Of a stretch of DNA of 64,000 bases, positions 28,871 through 31,590 are shown one piece after another (the stretch's first letter is position 1; each line of letters starts with the position of its first letter). The stretch lies in contig NZ_JAHNZT010000034.1 in assembly GCF_019039035.1 (NCBI RefSeq), positions 1-64,000 on the forward strand. The letters are read 5' to 3'. Source of the DNA: Citreicoccus inhibens. Its GTDB lineage: Bacteria > Myxococcota > Myxococcia > Myxococcales > Myxococcaceae. Both the position numbers and the translations under genes were made by a program. Below the pieces are notes generated by a model, which saw nothing but the letters and a program-made list of their open reading frames with translations, made no database searches and was not told the origin of the DNA.

Positions 28871-30457
28871 GTGCTCCTCGAGATGCCCCTTCTCATTGGC
28901 CTCATGGTGGCGGCCATCGCGTTGGCCATCGCGGCCAAGCGCGTGCGCGTGCCCTACAACGTCGCGCTGGTCGTGGGCGGACTGCTCATCTCGGTGGGAC
29001 ACCTGCTGCCGGGCGTGCCCCCTCTGAATCCGGAGGTGGTGTTCCTGGTCTGCCTGCCGCTGCTCCTGTTCGAGGGCGGCATCACCGCGGACCTGGCGAG
29101 CATCCGCGCCAACGCCGCGCCCATCAGCCTCCTGTCCACGCTGGGCATGGTGCTGGCCATTGGCGCGACGGGCGGCATGCTCCACGCGCTGGTGGGCCTG
29201 GACTGGGGCCCCGCGCTGCTGCTGGGCGCCATCCTGTCCGTCACGGACACCGTCTCCATCCTCTACGCGTTCCGCAAGGCGCCGGTGCCCGCGCGGCTGT
29301 CCGGAATCGTGCAGGGCGAGAGCCTCTTCAACGACGGCACCGCGCTGGTGGCGTACTCGGCCATCGCGGCGGTGGTGGCGGGAGGCGCGCCGCCCACGCT
29401 GGCGTCCATGGGCGCGCGCATGGTGCTGGCGTCCATGGGCGGCGCCGTGGTGGGCCTGTCCCTGGGCATGCTGGGCGCGTTCATCATCCGCCGCACCGAG
29501 GAGCCGCTGGCGGACATCATGGTGACCACGGCCGTGGCGCTCGCCTCGTACGTGCTCGCCGAGCAGCTGCACCTGTCCGGCGCCATCTCCGCCGTCACCT
29601 CGGGCCTCGCGGTGGGCGTGACGTTGCATCGCGACGTGACGCCGCAGAGCCAGCTCTCCATCCACACCTTCTGGGAGTACGTCGCCTTCGGGGTGAACAC
29701 CTTCCTGTTCCTCTCCGTGGGGCTCACCACGCACCCCGGCGACCTGCGCGGCTATCTGCCCGGGGTGGGGCTGGCGGTGCTCAGCGTCTTCGTGGGGCGC
29801 GCGGTGGGCGTGTACATCCCCTTCCTCTTGCTGCGCTGGCTGCGGCCCGCGGAGAGCATCCCGCCGCGCTGGCAGCACGTCTTCCTGGTGGGCAACATCA
29901 AGGGCGCGCTGTCCATCGGTCTGGCGCTGGGCATGCCCGAGTCCACGCCCTCGCGCGAGCAGCTCGTGGCGCTCTCGTTCGGCGTCACGCTGGTGTCGCT
30001 GGTGGGCCAGGGCCTGCTCCTGACGGGCGCGCTCAAGAAGCTGGGCCTCATCCAAGAGGACGCGGTGGCGCTGGCCATGGCGGAGCAGCGCGGAAGGCTC
30101 ATCGCGAGCCGCGCGGCGCACGTGGAGCTGGAGGCGCTGCACTCGCAGGGGCTGCTGCCGCGCGGGGCCTATGAGCACCTGCGCAGCGAGTACCAGGTGA
30201 ACATCGCGCGCGCGGAGCGGGAGCTGCGCCGAATCGGGGAGCAGCACCTCGCGGAGGGCGCGCGTGACTTGCTGGCCATGCGCCGGCGGCTCATCGACGC
30301 GGAGCGCACCGCGCTTCAGGGCGCGCGGCGCAACGGGCTCATCCCCGAGGCCACCGCGGAGCACATGCTCGGGCAGCTCGACGAGCGCATCCTGGATTTG
30401 GAGCACGTGCTGCGCGGCCGCGCGGACTCGGACACTCAGAAGGAGCACGCGTCATGA
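28871..30457 (+). CDS. CPA1-family cation/proton antiporter (NhaP-like)
   Basis: A 528-residue inner-membrane antiporter exchanging Na+ or K+ for H+. About twelve helices span residues 5-400, with CPA1 signatures LPLLLFEGGI, GAILSVTDTVSILY and GESLFNDGTALVAYS (ion-binding Asp of the ND motif). A soluble helical C-tail of about 120 residues (ESL... MAEQRGRLIASRAAHVELEAL) probably carries regulation. The GTG at 28871 is taken as start; ATG at 28883 is in frame and possible. Its stop overlaps the start of the TrkA-cNMP gene (ATGA), which makes that protein the probable cytoplasmic regulator of this antiporter. Confidence 0.9.
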   Translation: MLLEMPLLIGLMVAAIALAIAAKRVRVPYNVALVVGGLLISVGHLLPGVPPLNPEVVFLVCLPLLLFEGGITADLASIRANAAPISLLSTLGMVLAIGATGGMLHALVGLDWGPALLLGAILSVTDTVSILYAFRKAPVPARLSGIVQGESLFNDGTALVAYSAIAAVVAGGAPPTLASMGARMVLASMGGAVVGLSLGMLGAFIIRRTEEPLADIMVTTAVALASYVLAEQLHLSGAISAVTSGLAVGVTLHRDVTPQSQLSIHTFWEYVAFGVNTFLFLSVGLTTHPGDLRGYLPGVGLAVLSVFVGRAVGVYIPFLLLRWLRPAESIPPRWQHVFLVGNIKGALSIGLALGMPESTPSREQLVALSFGVTLVSLVGQGLLLTGALKKLGLIQEDAVALAMAEQRGRLIASRAAHVELEALHSQGLLPRGAYEHLRSEYQVNIARAERELRRIGEQHLAEGARDLLAMRRRLIDAERTALQGARRNGLIPEATAEHMLGQLDERILDLEHVLRGRADSDTQKEHAS

Positions 30458-31590
30458 GGATTGTCATCGCGGGGGGCGGCCGGGTGGGCAGCGTGCTGGC
30501 CGCGCGGCTGGTGGATGAGCAGCACGCGGTGACGGTCATCGAGCGGGACCCGGCCACGTGTGCCCGCCTCTTCGAGGAGGTGGGCGTGGTGACGGTGTGC
30601 GGGGACGCCACCAACCCCAAGACCCTGGAGGCCGCGGGCATCGGGGCGGCGGACATCGCGGCGGGCGTGCTGGCGCGCGACTCGGAGAACCTGGCGTTCG
30701 CGATGCTGGCGCGCTCCGTGTCCAGCGCGCGCGTCATGGTGCGCATGCTGGACACCAGCTACCGCGAGGCCTACCGCATGGCGGGCGTGAAGGAGCTGGT
30801 GGCCGAGGCGGAAGTGGTGGTGGCGAAGATGACCACCGCCATCGACTTTCCGCAGGTGGCGGGCTCGCTGCCGCTGACGAGCGGCGACGCGCTCCTCTTC
30901 GAGCTGACCATCCCCGCGCGCGCCGGAGTGGCCGGGCAGACGGTGGCGCAGGTGCGCGCGACGGCGGGTTTTCCTCGCGAGTGCATCTTCATCGCGCTGT
31001 TGGATCCGGACGGCCAGACGGCGCTCCCGGAGGGCAGCACGGTGCTGCGCGGCGGCCACACCGCCATCCTGGTGGCGCGCCGGGCGCAAGTGGCGCAAGC
31101 GGTGGAGTTCCTCACCTACGAGCCCGCGCAGGGCACCGGCGTGACGTCCTCGCTGGCGCAGACGCTGCGCAAGGTGGACTTCCTCACCCCGCTCAGCGAC
31201 GACGAAGTGGAGGCCGTGGCGCGCGGCGCCGAGTTCCTCCCCAAGGCCGCGGGCGAGCAGATCTTCCACCAGGGCGACGCGGGCGAGACGTTCTACGTCG
31301 TGCTCACCGGGGAGGTGGCGCTCAAGGACAACGTGGGCCAGACGGTGTCCACCGTGTCCGCGGGAGGATTCTTCGGCGAGCTGGCCCTGCTCACCGGAGA
31401 GCCGCGCACGGCCACCGCCGTGGCGTCCACCACCTGCGAGCTGGCCGCGGTGGGACGCGAGGACTTCCGAGGCGTGGTGATGGCCAACCCCTCGGTGGCG
31501 CTGGAGATGAGCCGCATCCTGGGCCAGCGCCTGACGCGCGCGCAGAGCAACGCGCCTCCCACGAAGCGCCGCGGCCTGTTCGGCCGCTGA
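30454..31590 (+). CDS. TrkA-N/TrkA-C protein with C-terminal cyclic-nucleotide-binding domain
   Basis: A 378-residue cytoplasmic regulator. Residues 1-120 form an NAD(H)-binding Rossmann RCK domain (IVIAGGGRVGSVLAARL, acidic end of strand 2 VIERDP, VCGDAT). About 140-225 is a TrkA-C domain. About 245-365 is a cNMP-binding domain (FHQGDAGETFYVVLTGEVAL and phosphate-cassette-like FFGELALLTGEPRTATAVA, which keeps the Glu and Arg that contact cyclic nucleotide). The combination lets NADH/NAD state and cAMP or cGMP both gate ion transport. It is translationally coupled to the CPA1 antiporter upstream. The domains are clear; the coupling to that antiporter is inferred from the overlap. Confidence 0.9.
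   Translation: MRIVIAGGGRVGSVLAARLVDEQHAVTVIERDPATCARLFEEVGVVTVCGDATNPKTLEAAGIGAADIAAGVLARDSENLAFAMLARSVSSARVMVRMLDTSYREAYRMAGVKELVAEAEVVVAKMTTAIDFPQVAGSLPLTSGDALLFELTIPARAGVAGQTVAQVRATAGFPRECIFIALLDPDGQTALPEGSTVLRGGHTAILVARRAQVAQAVEFLTYEPAQGTGVTSSLAQTLRKVDFLTPLSDDEVEAVARGAEFLPKAAGEQIFHQGDAGETFYVVLTGEVALKDNVGQTVSTVSAGGFFGELALLTGEPRTATAVASTTCELAAVGREDFRGVVMANPSVALEMSRILGQRLTRAQSNAPPTKRRGLFGR

Follow-up and report, generated by a model that had tools for sequence, protein, structure and literature searches.

A conserved gene pair of Myxococcota joins a CPA1-type antiporter to a soluble protein with RCK and cyclic-nucleotide-binding domains and is a candidate signal-gated ion/proton exchanger

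Several arrangements are known in which RCK domains control the movement of cations. KhtTU consists of a CPA2 antiporter and a separate soluble RCK_C protein, has c-di-AMP as its ligand, and contains neither an RCK_N domain nor a cyclic-nucleotide-binding domain (CNBD). The TrkA and KtrA rings, which are built from soluble RCK_N and RCK_C domains and likewise have no CNBD, control the TrkH and KtrB channels, and their RCK domains bind ATP/ADP. KefC and KefB, together with the plant KEA proteins, are cation/proton antiporters of the CPA2 type with a fused nucleotide-binding RCK/KTN domain, no CNBD and regulation by glutathione; in KefC, the RCK domains bind AMP, and they contact and restrain their own exchanger (PMC11150392). 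Escherichia coli YcgO (CvrA) is an RCK-controlled antiporter of the CPA1 type, in which RCK_C alone is present, fused to the exchanger together with a CorC domain rather than a CNBD, and the regulator is PtsN (PMC11808508).

That cyclic nucleotides can directly control a cation/proton exchanger is known for the animal protein SLC9C1, the sperm Na+/H+ exchanger, in which a CPA1 domain is combined with a voltage sensor and a CNBD, and cAMP modulates the exchanger via this CNBD (PMC6052114). The plant exchanger SOS1/NHX7 also has a CPA1 domain, a helical cytoplasmic region and a CNBD fold, all within a single polypeptide that contains no RCK domain, and its CNBD-like domain is reported to be unable to bind cyclic nucleotides (PMC10372031). 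According to a review, the combination of exchanger and CNBD, meaning single polypeptides, is absent from bacteria (PMC7573149).

The window analysed here is a stretch of 64,000 nucleotides from Citreicoccus inhibens (contig NZ_JAHNZT010000034.1), and it contains two overlapping genes that bring these elements together (Table 1). A previous sequence-only reading of the window had proposed that an ATGA overlap joins a CPA1 antiporter gene to a gene for a cytoplasmic protein with both RCK and cNMP domains, and the two open reading frames and the ATGA were indeed found where it had placed them.

Table 1. Features of the antiporter-regulator gene pair (positions are those of the window)
Feature	Position	Strand	Basis or detail
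Gene 1, CPA1-type cation/proton antiporter	28871..30457	+	528 aa, GTG start
Predicted ion-binding region, T125-D126 and E150-S151-L-F-N154-D155	29231..29335	+	alignment
All-helical cytoplasmic tail, residues 398-514 (predicted)	30062..30412	+	AlphaFold2, modest confidence
ATGA, gene 1 stop / gene 2 start, 4-base overlap	30454..30457	+	direct reading
Gene 2, soluble regulator RCK_N-RCK_C-CNBD	30454..31590	+	378 aa, ATG start
RCK_N (TrkA_N), nucleotide-binding-type Rossmann domain, GGGRVG (G7, G9, G12), acidic residue 30	30460..30801	+	PF02254
RCK_C (TrkA_C)	30895..31113	+	PF02080
CNBD	31246..31485	+	PF00027 4e-22
Phosphate-binding cassette GGFFGELALLTGEPRTAT with Glu309 and Arg318	31363..31416	+	aligned to PKG/PKA cassettes

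The first gene matches the Pfam family Na_H_Exchanger (PF00999, 1.5e-55), and among the NCBIfam models it matches the CPA1 model TIGR00831 at 5e-69, with a score of 233 that lies below the equivalog cut-off of 279.6, while the CPA2 model reaches 0.02 only. The CPA1 classification is therefore upheld by sequence, and exchange activity is predicted. The second gene matches TrkA_N (5.5e-24), cNMP_binding (4e-22) and, barely exceeding the cut-off of 27, TrkA_C (1.7e-6, 28.2 bits). The same three domains were recovered in the two most distant orthologues, in which TrkA_C is clearer (33.6 and 34.7 bits), so the domain content attributed to the partner is borne out. A Pfam scan of gene 2 returned no membrane-domain or DNA-binding matches, and the gene is present in a single copy in this 9.05-Mb genome of a relative of Corallococcus.

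Taken as a whole, the pair consists of known parts in a new arrangement. By analogy, it appears to be a cross between RCK control of the KefC/YcgO type and CNBD control of the SLC9C1 type; like KhtTU, it has its regulatory domains on a subunit of their own. With SLC9C1 it shares the CPA1 domain and a CNBD with intact ligand residues, but here the CNBD lies on a separate subunit, an RCK part has been added and there is no voltage sensor; with KhtTU it shares the two-gene organization with a soluble RCK-type subunit, whereas the antiporter class, the ligand and the domains differ. Two genes were present at every locus read, and at none of them were the exchanger and CNBD joined in a single polypeptide. 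A literature search found this combination of an antiporter with an RCK/CNBD protein nowhere described, and the earlier remark that it is uncharacterised thus holds for the literature searched.

The best solved relatives of gene 1, by sequence and by fold, are SOS1 and SLC9C1, with SOS1 as the top fold match. However, an orphan paralogue, L061, scores 175 bits against SLC9C1 compared with 85 for the paired antiporter, and because this orphan outscores the paired antiporter against both SLC9C1 and SOS1, a special ancestry with these proteins is not indicated. The idea that the pair derives from a split ancestor of SLC9C1/SOS1 was ruled out, as an orphan paralogue without an RCK/CNBD partner is much nearer to both. 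Judged by its sequences, then, the pair belongs neither to the SLC9C1/SOS1 type, being two polypeptides with no special similarity to it, nor to Trk. The orphan CPA1 antiporters of Myxococcota (L058-L062) are approximately 33% identical to gene 1, and the score of L061 against plant SOS1 is 170 bits, which, like that against sperm SLC9C1, is far above that of the paired antiporter. These related orphans manage without such a partner, a point against the reading of the pair as one transport system.

Full-length gene 2 was found in 59 of 195 Myxococcota genomes, from three families, and 58 of these 59 genomes have a close gene-1 orthologue as its immediate neighbour upstream, on the same strand; in the remaining genome, the contig begins with gene 2 and the upstream side is cut off. 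The genes are thus separated in none of the Myxococcota genomes, although the sequence-only reading had named separation in most genomes as the outcome that would speak against it, and the conservation that it proposed to check across myxobacteria is evident. In the genomes of this set that lack gene 2, the best relative of gene 1 is a paralogue at 32-35%. The overlap is -4 at all 53 loci with both gene ends read (three families, with some genomes counted twice because they are present in two collections); its letters are ATGA, GTGA or TTGA, and it holds down to 55-58% identity. A profile search with gene 2 across the phylum gave 574-701 bits for the RCK+CNBD orthologues and at most 100 bits for the next match, a single-domain protein, and no other RCK+CNBD protein was detected in the Myxococcota set at E 1e-22. 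A plasmid search yielded no gene-2 matches covering 80%, and the scan beyond Myxococcota used a single-protein query, which reaches close relatives only.

The genes that flank the pair are alike among close relatives only, and the divergent loci L049, L050 and L052 have none in common; thus, it is the gene pair itself that is the conserved unit. Given the adjacency in 58 of 59 genomes and the constant -4 overlap, the pairing is not due to chance, and both observations support the functional coupling of the antiporter with its partner that had been suggested. A 4-base overlap is the commonest type of gene overlap in bacteria, and the two genes could in principle be neighbours of unrelated function that share an operon. 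This explanation is exceedingly improbable, however, as the genes are not separated anywhere, their flanks differ, they are lost jointly, and RCK domains typically regulate cation transporters.

The joint loss is seen in nine Myxococcus genomes (genus by inference), three of them single-contig, from which both genes are absent. The gene upstream of the pair in the window and the TPR gene downstream of it were kept in all six pair-less Myxococcus genomes examined, and between these flanks there is a glucose-dehydrogenase-like gene, which also adjoins the pair in a sister genome, together with SDR and LysR-type genes where the pair would stand (both labels were read from sequence, without HMM annotation). 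No remnants of the antiporter or the regulator were detected by tblastn at these six loci. The pair is therefore gained or lost as a unit, and the SDR/LysR site looks as if one two-gene cassette had replaced another. At L071, L072, L073 and L076, the SDR oxidoreductase and LysR-type regulator genes are divergent, with conserved flanks on either side.

Concentrating on the possible partners of gene 2, its RCK part obtained its best NCBIfam scores with TrkA models, and the AlphaFold2 model of the protein, of modest confidence (mean pLDDT 71.9, pTM 0.39, with the domains better than their arrangement) matched the TrkA, MthK and KtrA gating rings and the PKA regulatory subunits, the TrkA and MthK rings being the best. 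Such matches would suit a Trk/Ktr-type gating subunit whose main target is a potassium channel encoded at another locus, but a search for TrkH/KtrB (PF02386) in the genome gave no match, while 11 of 14 controls were positive. In addition, the three other strong TrkA_N matches in the genome (two weak matches were left aside) are already fused to membrane domains, namely two CPA2 antiporters and one channel-like domain, and gene 2 was not seen apart from the antiporter. The identity of gene 2 as a Trk subunit was accordingly ruled out by the absence of TrkH, and we regard a principal action on a potassium channel as very improbable. As gene 2 encodes the only evident free-standing RCK protein of the genome, with no TrkH and with the other clear RCK domains fused, the antiporter is its only evident partner. 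One CPA2 antiporter of this genome (L068:226-2613, G000:C22) carries TrkA_N, TrkA_C and a C-terminal zf-UBP zinc finger (PF02148, 7.4e-11), and the fusion of this finger to an antiporter is unusual.

In the CNBD, the ligand residues Glu309 and Arg318 (cassette FFGE..LLT...R) align with the equivalent residues of PKG and PKA, and they are invariant in 41 of 41 distinct sequences from three families. The genome contains 14 class III cyclase domains and one DAC (c-di-AMP synthase) domain; c-di-AMP is therefore probably made, and the candidate ligands can thus be made by this organism. From the earlier proposal of gating by cAMP or cGMP, the ligand residues are present and invariant, and the gating itself is what we infer from them. 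As in SOS1, the CNBD of an antiporter subunit could instead be a structural or protein-contact domain, with the RCK ligand alone responsible for regulation: the presence of a CNBD alone proves no gating, CNBD proteins exist that cyclic nucleotides do not gate (PMC6052114), and SOS1 itself offers the precedent of an exchanger whose domain does not bind them. In SOS1, however, Tyr stands in place of the key Arg and binding was judged impossible (PMC10372031), whereas gene 2 keeps Arg318, together with Glu309, in every family, and the genome is rich in class III cyclase domains. A purely structural CNBD is consequently unlikely in our view.

The choice between cAMP and cGMP could not be read from the residue after Arg318, which is Thr in this protein and varies among relatives (Asn, Met, Ala or Ser). 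In several K+ transporters of Gram-positive bacteria, c-di-AMP binds to the RCK_C domain, as is established for KhtT and CpaA, and together with the DAC domain this would be compatible with c-di-AMP at RCK_C as the main signal, as in KhtTU and CpaA, and a minor role for the CNBD. Yet TrkA_C is the weakest domain match of gene 2, and its most conserved ligand site is the CNBD, which makes a cyclic dinucleotide an improbable principal ligand. Elsewhere in the genome, an MscS-type, bCNG-like channel of 493 aa with a C-terminal CNBD (L002:511-1992, G000:C55) has the CNBD closest to that of gene 2 (37%), and many Myxococcota genomes contain CNBD ORFs of approximately 500-550 aa that may be of the same MscS-type kind.

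The GxGxxG motif of RCK_N (G7/G9/G12) is invariant in the gene-2 alignment, and residue 30, at the end of beta2, is acidic (E or D) in most of the ten divergent members compared. This combination fits NAD(H), but it also fits ATP/ADP or AMP, and because RCK domains also bind these nucleotides, the gating by redox state that had been proposed for the pair should not be assumed.

The two genes probably encode one transport system, in which a nucleotide-binding RCK subunit, together with cAMP or cGMP, would gate the antiporter in trans. Gene 1 would provide an electroneutral-type CPA1 cation/proton antiporter for Na+ or K+, and gene 2 a soluble regulatory subunit, co-produced through translational coupling at the ATGA and assembling with it. 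The RCK part, probably a dimer or ring beneath the membrane, would touch the exchanger on its cytoplasmic side, as happens in KefC, and would have NAD(H), ATP/ADP or AMP as its adenine-nucleotide ligand. With cAMP or cGMP taken up by the CNBD, the RCK part would toggle between permissive and restraining states, and ion/proton exchange would track both the cyclic-nucleotide level and the energy or redox state. A likely use would be to keep ions and pH in balance during osmotic stress, because receptor adenylyl cyclases are osmosensors in Myxococcus: CyaA and CyaB of Myxococcus xanthus, another species than that of the window, act in osmosensing according to the passage of PMC7643160 that cites Kimura 2002 and 2005. 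There is an even chance that the separate subunit integrates two signals, the RCK part reading an adenine nucleotide or NAD(H) and the CNBD reading cAMP or cGMP, with a possible link from osmosensing adenylyl cyclases to ion and pH homeostasis.

If true, the pair would parallel, in bacteria, the proton exchanger that cAMP controls in sperm and would extend cyclic-nucleotide-controlled ion/proton exchange to bacteria, and this conserved two-gene version with an extra RCK sensor would represent the same control logic assembled independently. Cyclases are numerous in myxobacteria, few proteins are known there as direct effectors of cAMP, and the pair is a clear candidate for such an effector. Gene 2 would also offer a tractable soluble regulator for study.

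On the side of the antiporter, the AlphaFold2 model (pLDDT approximately 72, pTM 0.61) places the helical region at the C-terminal end of the protein, and tail residues that are invariant in the paired antiporters are missing from the orphans, which hints at the tail as a possible docking surface for the gene-2 protein. In an alignment of 11 sequences, T125, D126, E150 and D155 are invariant and N154 is nearly so, and the equivalent ion sites by alignment are those of MjNhaP1 and YcgO (PMC6052114, PMC11808508). The most distant paired antiporter, from another family (L050:4491-6080), is the one with Ser at the position of N154, so that SD replaces ND in its ion-site motif (EALFSDG).
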